From Chryseobacterium camelliae (lineage in GTDB: Bacteria > Bacteroidota > Bacteroidia > Flavobacteriales > Weeksellaceae): a DNA stretch of 64,000 bases. Both the position numbers and the translations under genes were made by a program. A model generated the notes under the pieces. It had not been told where the DNA came from and did no database searches. It saw only the letters and a program-made list of their open reading frames with translations. Shown here in pieces: positions 7,655 through 36,486 of the stretch (positions within the stretch are counted from its first letter, which is position 1; the number at the start of each line of letters is the position of its first letter). The stretch is taken from positions 2,046,001 to 2,110,000 of the forward strand of contig NZ_CP022986.1 in the NCBI RefSeq assembly GCF_002770595.1. The letters run 5' to 3'.

Positions 7655-8239
7655 ATGGAATTGTTAAAAAAATGGACGGATTGTTATATTGAAGCGGGTT
7701 GCGATGAGGTGGGAAGAGGTTGTCTGAGTGGTCCTGTGGTTGCAGCGGCCGTCATTATAGATGATACCTTCGAACAAAATCTCATTAATGATTCTAAAAA
7801 ATTAAATTTTAAAACCCGGCAGGAGCTTGATATGTATATCAAGGAAAATGTGAAATGCTATGCCATTGCAGAATTACCTCCCGAATTCATAGATCAGCAT
7901 AATATATTGAATGCCAGTATACATGCAATGCATAATGCTTTAGATAAGCTGACTATTAAACCTGAATTTATTCTGGTTGACGGAAACCGTTTCCATCCTT
8001 ATAATTATATTCCCCATCTGTGCATTGTACAGGGAGACTCAAAGATGCTGTCTATTGCCGCCGCTTCTATCCTGGCTAAAAATTACAGGGATAAATTAAT
8101 GATCAATCTGCATGAAGAGCATCCCGAGTACGGATGGGATACAAATTTCGGATATGCAACCAAAAAACATCAGGAAGCCCTGATCAAGCATGGTCCCACG
8201 AAGTACCACAGACAATCTTTCCGATTGAAGTACGATTAA
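7655..8239 (+). CDS. rnhB: Ribonuclease HII (EC 3.1.26.4)
   Basis: 194 residues. It cleaves the RNA strand of RNA-DNA hybrids and single ribonucleotides embedded in DNA. The first catalytic pair is in CDEVGRGCLSGP (D17, E18). The later acidic residues are in FILVDGNRF and in the SIAAASILAKNYRD stretch. The ATG at 7655 gives the normal N-terminus, just ahead of the catalytic motif. The longer frame from 7544 adds a hydrophobic stretch unlike the family and would cross the promoter. It is divergent from the susC-like gene and convergent with yidC. Confidence 0.95.
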   Translation: MELLKKWTDCYIEAGCDEVGRGCLSGPVVAAAVIIDDTFEQNLINDSKKLNFKTRQELDMYIKENVKCYAIAELPPEFIDQHNILNASIHAMHNALDKLTIKPEFILVDGNRFHPYNYIPHLCIVQGDSKMLSIAAASILAKNYRDKLMINLHEEHPEYGWDTNFGYATKKHQEALIKHGPTKYHRQSFRLKYD

Positions 8240-8308
8240 TGATCAGGCAGAGGTAAGCTATACGATTTCAAATATTGCCTGTTGAAATTTAGACTGATTC
8301 TAAATAAA

Positions 8309-12086: not shown

Positions 12087-12513
12087 TTTTTTAGATTTAT
12101 CAATTTAAGAAATAGCAGACTATTTCTGGGATTTAACGATTTTTTTTATCTATATTTGATCTTACCGAAACGCAAAAAACCCAGCAGGAATAATGATTTC
12201 TGTATGTACCACAAGCCAAAATCACAACAAGTGTCCAGCCTTGTACCGGTACTTGAGTACAGAAAATAAATTCATGGCCCGTCTATTTACAGTCTGCCCT
12301 ATTCCATCTGCTGAGTCCTGAAGCCTTTTGAAATTTTACACATATGCTCCTTTAGTATAGTAAACAAAAAATCATTTTAACTGACATAAAATCATTTCCA
12401 AGGTGATTGAAGAACAAAAAACAACTATTTCCCCTTCAAAGATAAAACGCATGGTGAAATCAGGATCAGGTATTTCCTGTTCGTTGTTAGATATCCTGAC
12501 GTTAAAAAAGAGA
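12087..12513. other. Divergent intergenic region, pyrG to PAP2 gene
   Basis: About 430 bp with no convincing gene. A TATATTTG promoter-like site on the plus strand at 12151-12158 is followed by a 42-codon open frame at 12193-12321 (start ATGATTTCTG). Its composition is not persuasive, so it is left unannotated as a gene. The site could also be the promoter of the PAP2 gene, with a leader of about 350 nt. Confidence 0.4.
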
Positions 12514-26529: not shown

Positions 26530-26642
26530 CCCCCGCTGGCGCGAGCGTCACGCTCGTGCCTCCATACTTGCATGAGTCTTTCACCATAACAGAAAAACTA
26601 TTCGTGGAAAGCACGAGCGAGACGCTCGCACTAGCAAAGGGG
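26530..26642. repeat. Palindromic-TIR element, copy A (type I)
   Basis: The left end reads CGCTGGCGCGAGCGTCACGC and contains a CGAGCG-TCA-CGCTCG hairpin. The right end contains CGAGCG-AGA-CGCTCG followed by CACTAGCAAAGGGG. The two ends are inverted copies over about 25 bp with few mismatches. The interior carries GAGTCTTTCACCATAACAG. It lies between two plus-strand genes. No coding capacity. Confidence 0.85.
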
Positions 26643-26684
26643 TCAGTTTTCTATAATGGTAACTTCAAATTAAATATATATAAT

Positions 26685-27365
26685 ATGAACTACAAAATTA
26701 TTTGGATTATAGTTGGGATTGTATCAATCCTTTTACTAATAATACTGGGTTTTTACATTGGAAATTTCCACAAAAGAAATTTATCTGATAGCCCTGAAGA
26801 ATGGGGACAATTTGGCGATTATTTAGGAGGTACGCTTAATACTACAATTTCCATTTTGAATTTATTTTTATTGGCTTATCTAACAATAAAAATTGCAAAA
26901 ATAGAAGAAGACAGAACGAGCAATACCTCAAAAGATTCTGTAAAGCCTCTAGGTCTTTTTTCTTTTAATATATCAAATGATTTTTTTAAAATTGAATTAC
27001 ATAATGTTGGTTTAGGACCATTAATACTAAAAGAGTTCAAAATCTTTGACAAAGAAAAACATTATAAAGATTTTAAAGAATTACTTGATAGTATACCTTT
27101 ACAACATTATAGACCAAAATATTCTTTTACTAAAAGTACAAGCAATGGAACAATTATAAGAAAAGACGATTTTTTAAATATCATAGATATGCAGCTAGAT
27201 AATGATGAAGCAGGAGTAGAGTATTCAAAAAAAGTTGAAAGTTTAAAAATAATTAAGAGTAAACTTGCTTCATGTGAAATAAAAATAATTTATGCAGATT
27301 TATTTGGAAATATTATAAATGAGGAAATAGAAAAGCTAGATTTTATTAATATAGATTGTAACTAA
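26685..27365 (+). CDS. Two-helix membrane protein with PutAbiC-like N-terminus
   Basis: 226 residues. Helix 1 is at about 4-27 (IIWIIVGIVSILLLIILGFYIG). The motif PEEWGQFGDYLGGTLNTTISILNLFLLAYLTIKIA follows and leads into helix 2 (about 53-68). A cytosolic part of about 150 residues is rich in Lys, Asp and Ile. The GQFGDYLGGTLN block is the hallmark I recall from putative phage abortive-infection proteins (PutAbiC/AbiC-type). Activity is unknown. The ATG at 26685 is used because the longer frame would begin inside the repeat. Confidence 0.6.
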   Translation: MNYKIIWIIVGIVSILLLIILGFYIGNFHKRNLSDSPEEWGQFGDYLGGTLNTTISILNLFLLAYLTIKIAKIEEDRTSNTSKDSVKPLGLFSFNISNDFFKIELHNVGLGPLILKEFKIFDKEKHYKDFKELLDSIPLQHYRPKYSFTKSTSNGTIIRKDDFLNIIDMQLDNDEAGVEYSKKVESLKIIKSKLASCEIKIIYADLFGNIINEEIEKLDFINIDCN

Positions 27366-27401
27366 ATTATAAATAATCTGACACCGCTGACGAAAGCATT
27401 C

Positions 27402-27545
27402 CCTCGCTGGCGCGAGCGTCACGCTCGTGCCTCCATACGCATGAGTCTTCCCCCCCCGCTGGCGCGAGCTTCCAAGCTCGTGTCCTCATATTGGCACTAA
27501 AATTTTACGCGTAAAGCACGAGCGAGACGCTCGCGCTAGCAAAAG
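27402..27545. repeat. Palindromic-TIR element, copy B (nested or tandem)
   Basis: A truncated type I left half (27404-27450, ending in GCATGAGTCTT) is followed directly by a second full element. The second starts CCCGCTGGCGCGAGCTTCC and ends GCACGAGCGAGACGCTCGCG plus CTAGCAAAAGG. The junction is a run of C. It shows that one element inserted into or beside another. Confidence 0.85.
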
Positions 27546-27627
27546 GATGAAGATGTTAATAAAAATAACCAAACCTTCCAGAATAATTTACCCACCCGCT
27601 CCGCTTCCAATCCGCAAAACTTTTACC

Positions 27628-27635
27628 TATATTTG
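27628..27635 (+). promoter_or_regulatory. TAnnTTTG promoter element for the XRE regulator
   Basis: TATATTTG, 21 bp before the ATG at 27657. The XRE gene at 39594 has the same spacing and box. Confidence 0.55.
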
Positions 27636-27656
27636 TTTTTGTTAAAACACACAAAT

Positions 27657-28055
27657 ATGCAGGACAAGAAAATACATCAGGGCAGGAACATCAAGCGGTT
27701 CCGGGAAATGCTGGGCATCAAGCAGGAAGCACTGGCTTTAGATCTCAATTGCAGCCAGCAAAAGATATCCATTCTTGAGCAAAAAGAGACTGTCGAAAAG
27801 GATATGCTGGAAAAAATCGCCGGCCTTCTGAATGTTCCGGTAGAAGCCATTGAAAATATGGAGGAAGAGCAAGCCATCAGTATTATTTCCAGTACATTTA
27901 ACAACAGTTCCCTTACAGGTGTTGTAAATAACACAACCCATCCGGTTGATGCACTTCTTCAGTTACATGAAGAGAAAATTGCCCTGTACGAAAGAATGCT
28001 GAAAGAGAAAGACGAAATGATGGCGAAGCTGGAGCAATACTTGCAGAAACCGTGA
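27657..28055 (+). CDS. XRE-family DNA-binding protein with C-terminal coiled coil
   Basis: 132 residues. A helix-turn-helix of the lambda-Cro/XRE type covers about residues 11-62 (NIKRFREMLGIKQEALALDLNCSQQKISILEQ). The polar linker contains STFNNSSLTGVVNNTTHPVD. A C-terminal coiled coil (105-130) ends EKDEMMAKLEQYLQKP. It is likely a transcriptional regulator that oligomerises through the coiled coil. It overlaps the start of a truncated lipoprotein frame (GTGA). A similar but frameshifted gene is present at 39228-39594. Confidence 0.85.
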   Translation: MQDKKIHQGRNIKRFREMLGIKQEALALDLNCSQQKISILEQKETVEKDMLEKIAGLLNVPVEAIENMEEEQAISIISSTFNNSSLTGVVNNTTHPVDALLQLHEEKIALYERMLKEKDEMMAKLEQYLQKP

Positions 28056-28183
28056 TCCGGATTTTCCTGGCGGTGCTTTCGGGTATTCTTCTGTTCAGCT
28101 GTTCTAAAACTAATACGTTGACGCGAGCGTTACACCCCCTTATTTTCGACAGAATATTTTTTACAGTATTATTGAAAAGTTAG
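28052..28183 (+). pseudogene. Truncated lipoprotein gene cut by repeat sequence
   Basis: A GTG overlapping the XRE stop opens a perfect lipoprotein signal (VIRIFLAVLSGILLFSCSKT; lipobox LLFSC). After about 23 codons it runs into TTGACGCGAGCGTTACAC, a piece of the repeat-element left end, and stops 20 codons later. The original gene body is missing. It was probably translationally coupled to the XRE gene and lost its body when a repeat element inserted or recombined here. Confidence 0.55.
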
Positions 28184-28198
28184 CTAAAATCAATACCT

Positions 28199-28810
28199 AT
28201 GATCGATCTGGATCGTGTTCAGCAAATCATCGAAAAAGAAATAAGTCCGGATTTTAAAATCTCCAGATATTTTGACACCGAAGATATGGTAATTTATTTT
28301 TGGAAGCACAAAGAATATACTCCTGATGATGAAAGAGGACGAATTATTGGGTCCGGACCTGTAGTTTATGATAAGAAGACAAAAGAGTATCGGGTAATGG
28401 GTTCCAGGGAATGGTTCAGTGAAGAAATCCGTAGGCTTTTCGAAACTGAGGAAGGAAAAGAACGTATGCATGAACTTGACTATCTGATGAGCCTGTTCGA
28501 AAACGGTGAAGAAAATCCGGATTATACCCATTCACTGATCGAAAAAATCAAAGCTAGAATCCTTCGCAGACAATATGTAAATTCTGAAGACGTAGATTTT
28601 CTGTCTATCCTTACCGGAGCCAGAAGAATAGATAAGGAATTTAATTTAATTGGCAAACCGCAATGGAAATTTGAAGAACATATTGTCGTGGTCTCAGATA
28701 ATCCTGTTGCGCAGAAAAAATTAATGAAGATCTGGAAAGAAATTGATTTTGAATATAAATTATTGTCTGAAAATGAATTGCTGTTATTTCGGAAAAAATC
28801 AATCTCATAA
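28199..28810 (+). CDS. Uncharacterised cytosolic protein
   Basis: 203 residues, no signal or membrane segment. The segment GSGPVVYDKKTKEYRVMGSREWFSEEI recalls YrhB/Imm35-type immunity domains, but the match is by eye and weak. The C-terminal part (QWKFEEHIVVVSDNPVAQKKLMKIWKEIDFEYKLLSENELLLFRKK) alternates strands and helices. It starts 16 bp after the truncated lipoprotein frame and is followed by repeat copy C. Role unknown; an immunity-type protein is one possibility. Confidence 0.6.
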   Translation: MIDLDRVQQIIEKEISPDFKISRYFDTEDMVIYFWKHKEYTPDDERGRIIGSGPVVYDKKTKEYRVMGSREWFSEEIRRLFETEEGKERMHELDYLMSLFENGEENPDYTHSLIEKIKARILRRQYVNSEDVDFLSILTGARRIDKEFNLIGKPQWKFEEHIVVVSDNPVAQKKLMKIWKEIDFEYKLLSENELLLFRKKSIS

Positions 28811-28827
28811 TCAGTTTTGAGAAAGAA

Positions 28828-28980
28828 TTCCCCCGCTAGCGCGAGCTTCCAGCTCGTGCTCACACAAAACTTCCAATTACTCATAAAGAGAAAACCTTTT
28901 CAACACTTTAAGTTATAAAAGAAAGTATTATGATTTTTTGATAATCAAGAGCTGGAAGCTCGCTGCATTGTAGGGGAATT
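28828..28980. repeat. Palindromic-TIR element, copy C (type II)
   Basis: It is bounded by AATTCCCC on the left and GGGGAATT on the right. The left hairpin is CGAGCT-TCC-AGCTCG; the right end is its reverse complement (GAGCT-GGA-AGCTC). The interior contains CACACAAAACTTCC, AGAGAAAAC and TTTCAACACTTTAAGT, shared with copies E and F but not with type I copies. Confidence 0.85.
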
Positions 28981-29048
28981 ATAAAAGCATAAATTCATTC
29001 CGAAAAACATACTATACAAAAGGCAACTCTGCTAAACAAAAAAGACAA

Positions 29049-29592
29049 ATGAAAACCCCAACTATATTTTTTTTCATTTTTATCACGTGTGTTTTAAACG
29101 CTCAAAGTCTGAAAATTAAAAATCTAAAAATTGTTGATTATGAAATTCAGCAAAATGGAACTGTTGAAATTTCAACTCATACAATAATTGATGAAAAAGG
29201 GGACTTAATTGTTTATTCAGATAGTTGGGATGGAAAAATTTCTTTCATTATAAATTAACGCAAGAAGAAGTTGAAAAATTAAACGTACTTGCGGAAAAAG
29301 ATTTAGAGTCTTTTGTAAAACAAAAAAAATTAAACAAGAATCAGGGTTTTGCAGGCAACAGAAAGTTTATCACTTTTAATTACAAAGGAAAAAAGAAAAG
29401 TCTGTGCTTTATAGAACCTTTTATGAGTTTATGAGTGTTTTAAAAGTATTGAATAAAAAAATTTATCAACATGATTCCAGTGCAAAAATCACATCGCTTT
29501 CAACTGATTTCGGGAAAACTGAAAAGGAAATAATTGAAAGGGACAAAATCGACAATTATTTACCAGAAAAAGCAGTAATAAGAGCCTATTAA
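29049..29592 (+). pseudogene. Secreted-protein gene with two single-base frameshifts
   Basis: Frame 1 gives a signal peptide (MKTPTIFFFIFITCVLNAQ) and a beta-rich start, and stops at 29258. The protein continues in a second frame (KLTQEEVEKLNVLAEKDLE, then AGNRKFITFNYKGKKKSLC). It then moves to a third frame (EFMSVLKVLNKKIYQHD) and stops at 29592. Each shift fits one lost base in a homopolymer: the A run at 29234-29238 and the T run at 29419-29422. The restored product would be about 180 residues. It is either a real pseudogene or a sequencing error. The family is not recognised. Confidence 0.65.
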
Positions 29593-29600
29593 ACAAATTT

Positions 29601-29712
29601 CTCCCCGCTGGCGTGATCGTCACGATCGTGTCACTTATTAGTATAAGTCTTTTGTCACAATAGAAAAACTATGGGTAAAGCACGAGCGAGACGCTCGTGC
29701 TAACAAAGGGGA
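29601..29712. repeat. Palindromic-TIR element, copy D (type I)
   Basis: The left hairpin has drifted to TGATCG-TCA-CGATCG. The right end keeps GCACGAGCGAGACGCTCGTG and TAACAAAGGGG. The interior shares AGTCTTTTGTCACAATAGAAAAACTA with copy A. Its right edge abuts the truncated DUF4411-type gene. Confidence 0.85.
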
Positions 29713-30063
29713 ACTTTGTGAAACAAATAATCCCGACCAGCTATCTGTTTGGTGTGAAAATGAATTAGATGATCATTTCTTCGCAGGCTCTACCTCTTGT
29801 GTAGATATTTATGCAAAAATCGCAATTTGGATACATTTAAGTACTTACTTTCTACAATCAGCCAAAGATGAATTTTTAACTACCGATTTAGCTGACCCCT
29901 GGTTAATCGCGTATGCTAAAAAACATGATTTAACAATAGTTACTCATGAAATTAGTCAACCACAAAGGAAAAATAGAATAAAAATACCTGAGCCTCGTAT
30001 TCATTTTGGAGTAAGATACTTATCCCTATTGAAATGTTTAGAGAAATAGGGGAAAGCTTCTAA
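29711..30063 (+). pseudogene. DUF4411 (PIN-like toxin) remnant, N-terminus missing
   Basis: A continuous frame from 29711 encodes ELCETNNPDQLSVWCENEL, then the diagnostic DLADPWLIAYAKKHDLTIVTHE and RKNRIKIPEP, which match the C-terminal two thirds of DUF4411 PIN-type proteins. About 45 N-terminal residues, including the first acidic site, are replaced by repeat copy D. The last residues need one more frame change near 30035 (EMFREIGESF, stop at 30061). Intact members usually pair with an ImmA/IrrE-XRE gene; none is adjacent. Confidence 0.7.
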
Positions 30064-30103
30064 AATAATACTACTGCTATTTCGGCAATACTTTCAACCT
30101 ATT

Positions 30104-30575
30104 CTATTATCTGATAGAAATGATATTATTGAAATGTAAGTTAGTACTTCTGCACTATCTCCGTCGTAATATTTTTTCCATGAACGGTAAAATCAGGTTT
30201 TTAGGTCTCATTTTGAGTTCAGTACTCTATATGTCCATATTTCTAACCAAGTATTTTCAATGGGCTTCCGGCATTTTTCCTTTGGAAAGGATTTTACGAT
30301 AGGTCGTGGTTTCAATGGAAATACCAACCATATCTTCCGGAATTTCTTCCAATGAATTTCAATAATAGTGGTATATGTTCCAGTGAAATTAGTTTCTAAA
30401 TCGGTGTAAAACGCATAAATTTCATCACTGGTTTTATTTGGGATTTACTCTGAATTTCGTCTTCCCAGAATTTTTGCCATCATGTTTCAATATCCTTGGC
30501 AGATTGCCCGTTCGTATTGATTGTTCTTATTGAAATTCCAATGATGTGTGTTGTATTGATGATTATATTCTTCAT
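30104..30575 (-). pseudogene. Degenerate GyrI-like effector-binding domain gene
   Basis: On the minus strand, from an ATG at 30575, the pieces KNIIINTTHIIGISIRTINTNGQSAKDIE, then FWEDEIQSK, DEIYA, TGTYTTII, EEIPEDMVGIS, KGKMPEA and finally KKYYDGDSAEVLTYISI occur in order but in changing frames. Together they outline a GyrI/AraC-type small-molecule-binding domain of about 155 residues. Several stops and shifts make it a clear pseudogene. It lies downstream of a WYL regulator on the same strand. Confidence 0.6.
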
Positions 30576-30627
30576 ATATTATTATTTATCTTTTTGACTA
30601 ATTTTTTTATTGTTTTTACAATTCTAC

Positions 30628-31055
30628 CTATTTTGATTTTATCGGTTGTAGCCGTATAAATCCATCTATAATGTTCTTTTTCTCTCCGTCAGAATAAGAT
30701 AAAAAAGTTTCATAGGCATTAGGCACATCCAATAGACAGAGCTTTAATTCTTCGGGTATATCCGTTGGAAAATTGTCCTCATACAATGTGATATGAACAG
30801 AATTTCCAACTTCTTTTTTTATTTTCTTTCGTATTTCTGCCTTTATTGGAAGAAAAAGAAGACCACTTCCCATTGATTGCAAATTATAGGCTTTGATTTC
30901 AAATCCATCAATGATTCCACTAATGCGAACCCAGCCAAAAGGCGTATGCTTACTTTGTTTAATCTCGGGGGGATTCGGATAAAAGTCCAACCACCCTTAC
31001 CTTTAAATTTTTCCAGAATACAACATTTATCAATTAGGGCTGTTTGATCTTCCCT
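30628..31055 (-). pseudogene. DUF1905/YdeI-type domain gene with frameshift and no start
   Basis: The long frame (to 30990, opening at a TTG) encodes HTPFGWVRISGIIDGFEIKAYNL and EELKLCLLDVPNAYETFLSYSDGEKK, typical of DUF1905-containing proteins. The family's N-terminal block ILEKFKGKGGWTFIRIP lies upstream in another frame. One extra base in the six-G run at 30967-30972 would join the two. Even then no ATG is found before the stop of the upstream gene at 31059, whose frame is the same. It is best read as a damaged gene or an assembly error. Confidence 0.55.
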
Positions 31056-31058
31056 TTT

Positions 31059-31688
31059 TTAAGCGATTATATACCAAAAGTCAAGATTCATCGTATCCTT
31101 TTTTGCTAAATTCATTAGTTTCATGCAAAAAGCATTATTAAAATATCCCATACAAATTTGCTTGGTCTGTGCCAGTGTTCTGCCAAATGTTATTTCCGAA
31201 AAAACATTAGACTCCACTTGCCCGATGAAATGAGCTCTTGTATTGTCAGATTGTTTTAGATAATTGTGTTCAATATCTTCCGAAATATTTAGTAATTTTT
31301 TCTCGTCATTGATGTCAATGAGTGAGAATGTTCCTTTCTCAATACACGAAAAATCACTTGGGATTACAAATTTCTCTTTCTGAATAGTATGATATTCAAT
31401 GCTTACAGAAGGCATCTCTATCAGTTCAAAGAAGTTTTGTACATCTGGATGTTGACCAAAATGATTTGCTAGTTCTTTTAGATCCAGCATCGTTTCGCTA
31501 AACAATACATTAGCGTATTCATTATCATAATTACGAACCAGACAATGAAAAATCAATCCATTTTTGGATGCTATAGCTTTCTCAAATTTAAGTGCAGCAT
31601 ACAACAGTTCGTCATCTGTAACACTTTCCTTTTTTCTAAATCGTGTAAACTCCATTGCCTTTGCCTCTTTACTGCTTATTCTAATCAT
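31059..31688 (-). CDS. Uncharacterised protein next to the WYL regulator
   Basis: 209 residues, no signal. The N-terminal part (ESVTDDELLYAALKFEKAIASKNGLIFHCLVRNYDNEYANVLFSETMLDL) and a repeat-like second half resemble dimeric ferredoxin-like (ABM/EthD) folds, but I do not recognise a family. It lies 69 bp downstream of the WYL-regulator gene on the same strand and is probably its operon partner. The DUF1905-like frame follows without a gap. Confidence 0.6.
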   Translation of the reverse strand: MIRISSKEAKAMEFTRFRKKESVTDDELLYAALKFEKAIASKNGLIFHCLVRNYDNEYANVLFSETMLDLKELANHFGQHPDVQNFFELIEMPSVSIEYHTIQKEKFVIPSDFSCIEKGTFSLIDINDEKKLLNISEDIEHNYLKQSDNTRAHFIGQVESNVFSEITFGRTLAQTKQICMGYFNNAFCMKLMNLAKKDTMNLDFWYIIA

Positions 31689-31757
31689 TTTTTACTTATT
31701 AAATTAATACTGGAGCAAATGTACAATGGAGTTGTGACAGCTGTATGGCAAGGGTAG

Positions 31758-32462
31758 TTAACATTTTTTTTGAGCCATTTCGATATACTCTTCAAAGGTA
31801 ATTTTATGGGGCACAAAAGTTTCATTTTGAACAAAAAGGCTCTCAATACGCTCCAGTCTAAAAGCCCTGTAATCATTTCTCAATCTGCACAATGCAATCA
31901 GCAGCCAGTTTTCTTGTGTTGTATAAATAGCAAAAGGCTCAATTATTCTTTCTGTTGTCTGATTATTATCTGGCGCGTAATATCTTATTTTAACAAGTTT
32001 AAAATTTGTTAATGCCAATTGTAGAACTGATAAGTTGTTACTTGTTCGATTACTTTCCCAATTTTGTCCCGACAGAATTCTTTCAGAAAGCAAATTCGCC
32101 TTTTCTTTAGTGTTGTTCCGTAAAACAGATTTTATTTTATTTACTGCATCGGTATAATCCTTTACAAAAGAGGCATCTTTATTTTTTAAAATCAATTGTT
32201 CGGCAGTAATAAGTGCATTGGCTTCATTTTCAGAAAACATTACTGGGGGAATTCGATAACCATCCATTAGTGTATATCCTTTTCCTTCTTCGGTTAAGAT
32301 GGGTACACCGGCTTGCTCTAACGCTTTAATATCCCTATAGATTGTTCGTTTACTGATTGAAAATTTTTGAGCCAATTCATTAGCAGTCAAAAGTCGTTTT
32401 GTCTGTAATTGAGTCAATATTGCAGTTAATCGGGAAAGTCGCTTTATATCATTTTCATTCAT
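31758..32462 (-). CDS. WYL-domain transcriptional regulator (YafY/DeoR-like)
   Basis: 234 residues. A winged HTH covers about residues 5-58 (RLTAILTQLQTKRLLTANELAQKFSISKRTIYRDIKALEQAGVPI). A linker follows, then a WYL ligand-binding domain from about 135 (LVKIRYYAPDNNQTTERIIEPFAIYTTQENWLLIALCRLRNDYRAFRLERIESL). WYL proteins sense small molecules or nucleic acids and often control defence or metabolism genes. It is first in a minus-strand set with 31059-31688 and two decayed genes downstream. Confidence 0.92.
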   Translation of the reverse strand: MNENDIKRLSRLTAILTQLQTKRLLTANELAQKFSISKRTIYRDIKALEQAGVPILTEEGKGYTLMDGYRIPPVMFSENEANALITAEQLILKNKDASFVKDYTDAVNKIKSVLRNNTKEKANLLSERILSGQNWESNRTSNNLSVLQLALTNFKLVKIRYYAPDNNQTTERIIEPFAIYTTQENWLLIALCRLRNDYRAFRLERIESLFVQNETFVPHKITFEEYIEMAQKKC

Positions 32463-32933
32463 TAGAAACTATTTATTAACCTTTGTTAACTTCTTTATAC
32501 GAGATGTTGTGCTTCGTGAAAAAGTAATTTTGGTTATTACTAAATTTTATATAAGAAGATTAATATAGCCAAAAGTGGCTAGTAAAAAATTGTTTAGAAG
32601 AAACGAGAGTGGTGCAGTAAGGATTTTGTAATGTCGTTTACTGCACTTGCTTTCACCTCATTATCTTATAACGCATTACTTCAAATTTAGTAAAAAATGA
32701 GTTAAGTAGTAAGACACTTATAATTTTACAAATATGTTATAGCAAATAAAAATTGAAAAGATACCATTCTTACTTAAGGTAATTCTTATCCTATAAAGAA
32801 GAAATTTAGTCTATCCTATTAAATATCTCAATTCTGGGTCATTCTCAATTCGGCAAATTTCGCTTGAAATAATCATGGAACATCAAGTTTGATTTACCGA
32901 TAATTTTCATCAATCTCTTTACTCATTGTGTCA
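32463..32933. other. Intergenic region with a CTGCA palindrome
   Basis: AT-rich, no supported gene. GTGCAGTAA at 32612-32620 and TTTACTGCAC at 32637-32646 form a 9-10 bp inverted repeat that could be a regulator site or hairpin. A short minus-strand frame with ISSEICRIENDPELRYLIG (ending near 32814) may be the last piece of a lost gene. Confidence 0.4.
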
Positions 32934-33079
32934 TCCCCGCTAGCGCAAGCTTCCAGCTCGTGCTCACACAAAACTTCCACTTAATCATCAAGAGAAAACA
33001 GTTTCAACACTTTAAGTAAGGAAAGTACTGTAATCTTTTACTCGCTACGAGCCGGAAACTCGAGGTTAGCGTAGGGAGC
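32934..33079. repeat. Palindromic-TIR element, copy E (type II)
   Basis: The left end is CCCCGCTAGCGCAAGCTTCC; the right end has CTACGAGCCGGAAACTCGAG, its diverged inverse. The interior has CACACAAAACTTCC, AAGAGAAAACAG and TTTCAACACTTTAAGT, as in copies C and F. Confidence 0.85.
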
Positions 33080-33162
33080 ATTTCTCCCTAACCGATTGCA
33101 GATTTATCATTTGCAAAATCCTCATTATATTATTAATATTGTAAAAATGAAATGAACTATTG

Positions 33163-33621
33163 ATGATTAAACTATATCCTTTAGTAGTTACAATCTTATT
33201 ATTTTTCCTTGGTTGCACAAAAAAAGATGATATGAAATACAATGTAGGCCAGGAATGGAAATATAAAACCAGACAGGGAGAAGAAAACTCGACCCTGAAA
33301 ATTTTGAAGATTGAAGAATATCCAACCATCGGAAAAGTGGTTCATATTTCGTTGAGCGGATTAAAGATGAAAAATCCTCAGCACCCAACAGGTATTGCCG
33401 ATAAAATAAGCCATCTTCCGATTACTGAAGAAGCGTTGGATAAAAGTATCATCAGCATTAAAAATGACACCCGCCAAATGCCCGACTCCACTGAAATGGA
33501 TGGTTATTCTTACTGGAAAAAAGAGTTTGATAAAGGAAATGCCGGCGTGTTTTCCATTTCCGTTTCCGAAATTGTAAACTCAATAGAAAAATCAATTGTT
33601 TCAGGAGACTATACCAAGTAG
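33163..33621 (+). CDS. Uncharacterised lipoprotein
   Basis: 152 residues with lipobox LFFLGC near residue 18 and a charged start KKDDMKYNVGQEWKYKTRQGEENSTLKILKIE. The rest is beta-rich with a helical C-terminus (SISVSEIVNSIEKSIVSGDYTK). I do not recognise the family. The ATG at 33163 is preferred over a TTG one codon earlier. It probably faces the periplasm or cell surface and shares its direction with the DUF2461 gene 30 bp downstream. Confidence 0.7.
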   Translation: MIKLYPLVVTILLFFLGCTKKDDMKYNVGQEWKYKTRQGEENSTLKILKIEEYPTIGKVVHISLSGLKMKNPQHPTGIADKISHLPITEEALDKSIISIKNDTRQMPDSTEMDGYSYWKKEFDKGNAGVFSISVSEIVNSIEKSIVSGDYTK

Positions 33622-33651
33622 ATTAATCCTAAATTTGCTAAAAACCCTAAG

Positions 33652-34311
33652 ATGAAAAAAGCCTTTGAATTCCTGAAGCAGCTTGAGAAAAACAACACCC
33701 GCGAATGGTTTGCCGCCCACAAAGCGGAATATGAGGCGATAGTAAAAGAAAACAAAGCCCTTTTCAATCAGATCCATGCCGGACTTCAGCAATATGACCA
33801 GGTACCGGGAATCCATATGTACAGGATTTACCGGGATGTCCGTTTTTCAAAGGATCAGACGCCGTACAAAACGCATTTCGGAGTTGGGTATTCCCGCTTA
33901 AAACCGATGCTGAGAGGTGGTTATTACATTCATCTTGAGTCTGGAAACAGTTTCGTGGGTGGCGGATTCTGGGGACCGGATGCCAAAGACCTGCTCCGCA
34001 TCCGCAAAGAATTTGAAATCAGCACCGCTGAAATTGAAAAGATCACTTCGGATCAAACCTTCATCAATTATTTTAAAGAAATTAAAGGCGATGCAGTGAA
34101 AACCGCCCCGAGAGGTTTCGATAAAAACCATCCGGCCATCGACCTGATCAGGAAAAAGCAGTATGTCATTATGCGGCTATTGACCGATCAGGAAGTTTTT
34201 TCTGCCGGTTTCCCGAAAGAAGCAGTGCTCACCTTACTGGCCATGCGCCCTTTTTTCGATTATATGAGCGAAGTGCTTACGACGGATCTGAATGGGGCGT
34301 CTTTGATTTAA
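33652..34311 (+). CDS. DUF2461 (TIGR02453-type) protein
   Basis: 219 residues. The start FEFLKQLEKNNTREWFAAHKAEYEAIVK, the core YRIYRDVRFSKDQTPYKTHFGVGYSR and GGYYIHLESGNSFVGGGFWGP are diagnostic for DUF2461, a widespread cytosolic family of unknown function. It is complete. Base composition is closer to the core genome than the genes to its left, so it may be a resident gene at the island edge. Confidence 0.9.
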   Translation: MKKAFEFLKQLEKNNTREWFAAHKAEYEAIVKENKALFNQIHAGLQQYDQVPGIHMYRIYRDVRFSKDQTPYKTHFGVGYSRLKPMLRGGYYIHLESGNSFVGGGFWGPDAKDLLRIRKEFEISTAEIEKITSDQTFINYFKEIKGDAVKTAPRGFDKNHPAIDLIRKKQYVIMRLLTDQEVFSAGFPKEAVLTLLAMRPFFDYMSEVLTTDLNGASLI

Positions 34312-34322
34312 ATACAAATGGT

Positions 34323-34340
34323 GAATTTGGCAAGCGTACC
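34323..34340 (+). repeat. 18-bp direct repeat, left copy
   Basis: GAATTTGGCAAGCGTACC occurs here and identically at 36469-36486, flanking the dehydrogenase and Crp-type regulator genes. Sequence after each copy is also similar (TGCTCTTCCCCC here, CACTCTTGCCGCC there). Confidence 0.6.
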
Positions 34341-34346
34341 TGCTCT

Positions 34347-34494
34347 TCCCCCGCCAGCGCGAGTTTCCAGCTCGTGTCCACACAAAACTTTCCCTTAGCG
34401 TGCGAGAGAGAGAGAAAACAGTTTCAACACTTTAAGTCGTAAAGGAGGCATTATATTTTAATAGCTACGAGCGTGACGCTCGCGGCAGCGTGGG
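34347..34494. repeat. Palindromic-TIR element, copy F (type II interior, mixed ends)
   Basis: The left end is CCGCCAGCGCGAGTTTCC, of the TTCC type. The right end has CTACGAGCGTGACGCTCGCG, of the GTGACGC type, so its two ends come from different subtypes. The interior has CACACAAAACTTTCC and TTTCAACACTTTAAGT. It follows the DUF2461 stop by 35 bp. Confidence 0.8.
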
Positions 34495-36468: not shown

Positions 36469-36486
36469 GAATTTGGCAAGCGTACC
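36469..36486 (+). repeat. 18-bp direct repeat, right copy
   Basis: An exact copy of the sequence at 34323-34340. The segment between the two (2.1 kb) holds repeat copy F, the dehydrogenase and the Crp-type regulator. The rest of the 301-bp gap (36290-36590) shows only the promoter noted above. Confidence 0.6.

Follow-up and report, generated by a model that had tools for sequence, protein, structure and literature searches.

Clustered orphan REPINs in Chryseobacterium camelliae, very probably partners of a lost RAYT transposase that lies between the same hairpin ends in relatives

The REPINs and BIMEs known from Pseudomonas and E. coli are extragenic, non-autonomous doublets of inverted REP sequences with a spacer, and they are tied to RAYTs. 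The usual description of RAYTs is that of domesticated transposases present in a single copy (PMC8049555). The elements of Chryseobacterium camelliae analysed here share this organization. However, the foot of their ends reads GCT instead of the canonical GTAG or GGAG, about 17 island-clustered elements are present instead of hundreds, and the RAYT units of relatives sometimes occur in more than one copy. An arrangement in blocks at few loci has been described for the GTAG-23 REPs of Thermomicrobium roseum (PMC3733652), which belong to another REP class and whose host is unrelated. MITEs are likewise short elements with terminal inverted repeats, and here too relatives hold deletion derivatives of an autonomous unit, whereas the mover would be a single-strand HUH enzyme. 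Among RAYTs, subclass 2.6 of Quentin et al. 2018 (group 5 of Bertels) comprises Bacteroidetes proteins of ~180 aa with WQ, YIH[QN]NP and SS motifs, whose genes are flanked by non-canonical hairpins with further copies elsewhere in the genome (PMC6006769). These hairpins were published as "atypical secondary structures" and, in the part of that paper available to us, are described without a consensus, clustering, a deletion series or orphan populations.

The window, a 64-kb stretch of the 4.38-Mb C. camelliae chromosome, holds between positions 26530 and 34494 six elements of 109-148 bp each plus one half-copy, just as the initial annotation had described for these 8 kb. The elements and their neighbouring features are as follows.

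26530..26641, + strand: W1, a REPIN with two inverted REP ends and a type alpha spacer; covariance-model scores of the ends 49.4 and 40.7 bits
26688..27365, + strand: gene between W1 and W2, 225 aa from that start, without Pfam match
27401..27548, + strand: W2, type alpha, with an additional nested REP (third end) at 27454-27484
28114..28133, + strand: half REP (GTTGACGCGAGCGTTACA), a breakpoint of synteny in several relatives
28199..28810, + strand: gene between the half REP and W3, 203 aa, without Pfam match
28830..28977, + strand: W3, spacer type beta, right end degenerate
29602..29710, + strand: W4, type alpha
32934..33077, + strand: W5, type beta, right end degenerate
34322..34347, + strand: left copy of a direct repeat of ~24 bp that brackets the W6 module; the second copy starts near 36473
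34348..34494, + strand: W6, type beta, the left edge of a module of W6 and two genes that is absent from the relative G104

The spacers of the window copies are thus of two types, alpha in W1, W2 and W4 and beta in W3, W5 and W6. A stop codon is found at most 170 bp upstream of five of the six elements (W5 is the exception) and at most 40 bp upstream of four, in line with the earlier remark that most elements follow the 3' end of a gene. Folding of whole elements is weak for W5 (z -1.5) and W6 (z -0.9), and the other four have z values of -4.2 to -5.8. An Rfam search of the window gave no match. The reading frame at 29050-29592, in the interval from W3 to W4, looks broken, with an in-frame stop after ~200 bp while another frame continues.

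The two ends of one element are inverted versions of one hairpin of ~30 nt, so that two inverted palindromic REPs surround a short spacer as in a REPIN. Each end consists of a variable pyrimidine-rich start, a near-invariant GCT foot (92-99% conserved per position among 135 distinct ends), a 10-bp stem and a TCN loop. Strong covariation supports the stem: in a 40-sequence alignment, 32 cells are changed on both sides, whereas shuffles give 9.7 and the signal collapses in slid controls. The loop-closing pair shows 29 double changes among the 135 distinct ends, against 4.3 expected under independence. Shuffled sequence gives 0-1 matches at a score where real loci give ~115. The mutually inverted hairpin ends noted initially are real, with degenerate right ends in W3 and W5.

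Ends were located across the chromosome by a weight matrix and then confirmed with a covariance model at E<=0.01. This yielded 28 ends, below the high copy number (>100) of REPINs, and 27 of them fall in three clusters spanning <1% of the chromosome, all delimited by the covariance model.

2072.5-2080.5 kb: cluster 1, in the window
2171.2-2181.2 kb: cluster 2
3882.9-3902.7 kb: cluster 3

At this threshold no end occurs in the rest of the 64-kb window outside the six copies, as had been noticed, and the two other clusters (2171-2181 and 3883-3903 kb) lie beyond it. The ends make up 17 elements, of which 15 lie no more than 6 kb from another one, compared with 0.7 expected, and clustering was also seen in all five relatives tested. 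The initial annotation had set random placement without conserved ends against its own reading; the comparison with shuffled sequence and the count of close neighbours exclude chance, and the proposed tie to accessory islands is supported. Copies that share a spacer within one cluster all point in the same direction, in the families where this is readable; counts of inverted pairs are no guide for short elements, each of which is matched with its own opposite end. REPs do not usually occur in such low numbers, gathered in islands and with related copies of a cluster all oriented alike.

A search for a linked transposase in relatives, recommended with the initial annotation, found a RAYT between the same ends. 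In G038, copies of ~700 bp with the same hairpin ends enclose a RAYT gene; both RAYT copies of this genome are damaged, and other genomes hold intact ones. Several copies of the ~700-bp unit are present in some relatives. A scan of named genomes returned 80 RAYT loci from Chryseobacterium, Flavobacterium, Elizabethkingia, Epilithonimonas, Myroides, Lutibacter and other genera, 71 of which had full flanks and were used for the flank count. Inverted hairpins lie on both sides of the RAYT gene in 69 of these 71 and on one side in two, compared with none of 2000 controls; their median distance is 50 nt upstream of the ATG and 15 nt downstream of the stop codon. In a search of the genus, all 16 of the best RAYT homologues (at least 67% identity, L059-L074) have such an end, as opposed to none of 12 homologues at ~50% identity, where the one weak match (14 bits, at L078) lies 600 bp away. 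Other palindromes occur beside two of three examined homologues of ~50% identity. The distant homologues at L080 1317-2016 and L087 1270-2010 lie between another inverted palindrome (TACCGCACGAATC...), which suggests that each RAYT clade has its own REP family.

The RAYT proteins carry invariant HxH, WQ and Tyr motifs, and three of them score above the cut-off of NCBIfam REP_Tyr_transpos. HUH, WQ, YIH[QN]NP and SS motifs are all present, and these fit subclass 2.6 (group 5) as characterized in PMC6006769, to which the RAYT would belong on its motifs. The HUH motif differs, being mostly SH[VI]H here (one sequence has NHVH) and NH[LIV]H in the subclass as given there. A simple lagging-strand bias finds no support, since RAYT orientations relative to replication are mixed across genomes, with about 8 co-directional and 5 head-on in a hand tally that assumes the origin at dnaA.

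Copies of 254-331 bp in G038, G121 and G140 retain only parts of the RAYT gene, including its last codons; these shorter copies in relatives are internal-deletion derivatives of the unit. The spacers of the window elements have no detectable sequence match to any fetched RAYT unit; their only matches are to elements of G110, a close relative. Judged by sequence comparison, internal deletion from a RAYT unit is established for the relatives, not for the window copies. The RAYT gene is thus part of a compact unit bounded by hairpin ends of its own, in some cases multicopy, which leaves deletion derivatives and orphan REPINs.

The C. camelliae genome contains no RAYT of this kind, none scoring over the cut-off, and the same palindrome flanks a RAYT gene in relatives only. 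Because a RAYT flanked by the same ends exists in relatives and is absent here, the window elements are very probably orphan REPINs, non-autonomous partners of a RAYT lost from the genome. With the RAYT gone, the copies in this genome are most likely immobile fossils. The MITE- or BIME-like, non-autonomous class proposed at the outset was right, in view of the RAYT units with the same ends in relatives; the REP-type tyrosine transposase proposed as the mover was right in kind, but it is missing from this chromosome. Many elements also occur in G121 and G140, which have no Y1 match, and orphan populations are therefore not unique to C. camelliae. The genome's own two Y1 genes were rejected as movers; they are IS200-like and have other palindromes nearby. 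The palindromic inverted repeats beside these two genes are distinct (GGGCTTTAGCCC; ATTCCTACGGAAT). At L019 the repeat arms (1387-1975) bracket the IS200-like gene (1489-1911). At L020 (1936-2345) the strongest arms, 1936-1977 and 2304-2345, and a further pair, 1996-2024 and 2255-2283, lie at or after the 3' end of the IS200-like gene (1489-1956), which is not bracketed.

Comparison of one locus with six orthologous loci gave 30 synteny breakpoints, of which 17 lie at most 60 bp from an element of one or the other genome where 5.5 would be expected, although the 30 events are not independent because the relatives share ancestry. G110 has a single alpha element where C. camelliae has W1, a gene and W2. 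G019 retains the 203-aa gene; in G110 it is missing, precisely in the interval from the half REP to W3. The right flank of W2 is common to several relatives, and a block conserved in relatives starts 55 bp right of W5. G104 lacks W6 and two genes, which in C. camelliae sit between the direct repeats of ~24 bp, and it has only one copy of this repeat. Cluster 2 also differs from G110 at elements. The breakpoints at this one locus support gain and loss, at the elements, of gene segments flanked by copies of the same orientation, the copies acting as dispersed homology. Such turnover would be explained by homologous recombination among copies that point the same way. The search for empty sites advised initially gave no single-element empty site, and hence no view of excision or insertion, among ten fetched orthologous loci; in the target-site comparison the sole difference found was the module-sized one with the ~24-bp repeat.

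Hairpins that can form in single strands, a common orientation and a spacing near gene length would also be expected if the elements were attC-like sites of an integron-like cassette array, with a site-specific integrase swapping the intervening genes, and the differing genes between adjacent elements and the breakpoints at elements could be read in the same way. Such an array is nevertheless very improbable and already largely refuted: the genome encodes no integron integrase over the cut-off, the ends are those of a RAYT unit, and by inspection they read CCCC-GCT...AGC-GGGG without the RYYYAAC/GTTRRRY core sites. Equally remote is the idea that the elements merely terminate transcription of the upstream genes as intrinsic terminators, or stabilise their mRNAs as hairpins; ordinary terminators had been raised by the initial annotation itself as the competing explanation. 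The position of five of the six shortly after a stop codon and the GC-rich hairpin ends agree with it, yet few elements have a T tract. The region totals 9 terminator-like sites, close to the shuffled mean of 6.0, and just two of the nine coincide with an element hairpin that has a T-rich + strand tail. Terminators are not characterized by paired inverted ends around conserved spacers or by linkage to a RAYT. The terminator as sole explanation is already contradicted; the elements may have a secondary effect on transcripts.

Clustering purely by tandem or segmental duplication, with no transposition, is unlikely, if less so than these two. It would account for the uniform orientation of copies, for two tandem elements in G021 that share ~50 bp of right flank, for the flanking sequence common to copies in G086 and for a 181-aa gene of cluster 3 that is present four times at ~90% identity. 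Against it, similarity between copies does not extend beyond the element ends, as for discrete insertions, in the self-comparison of the window and likewise in cluster 2, G121 and G140.

The reading of the elements as orphan REPINs leads to a proposed mechanism. Two inverted REP hairpins and the short spacer that separates them would be the non-autonomous partner of a RAYT-type Y1 HUH transposase, of a kind that is found across Flavobacteriales. The RAYT would recognise the hairpin as a folded single strand, with the invariant-like GCT foot at its base, and would nick and rejoin at both ends, copying the unit nearby. After loss of the RAYT, the remaining copies would serve as dispersed homology for gene gain and loss. 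More tentatively, and with the odds against it, same-orientation REPIN arrays may form an integrase-free gene cassette platform, that is, RAYT-seeded exchange hot spots that outlive the RAYT. If so, incoming element-bearing DNA would recombine homologously at a resident element, so that a single gene flanked by two elements is gained or removed. The system is tractable for investigating REPIN origin, clustering in one direction and the influence of elements on island gene turnover after transposase loss.

Two further observations concern the clusters outside the window. The 181-aa gene of cluster 3, of unknown family, lies in blocks that are ~88-92% identical at the DNA level.

L023 18164-18709; L024 1288-1833, 5050-5595 and 12169-12714: the four copies of the 181-aa gene

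Cluster 2 is located downstream of a tmRNA gene (L021 5784-6183), and a copy of the 3' end of this gene is found by homology at 8178-8259. Near 12400 of the same locus, a stretch resembles the tmRNA 3' end by eye, a pattern as at the attachment sites of integrative elements.
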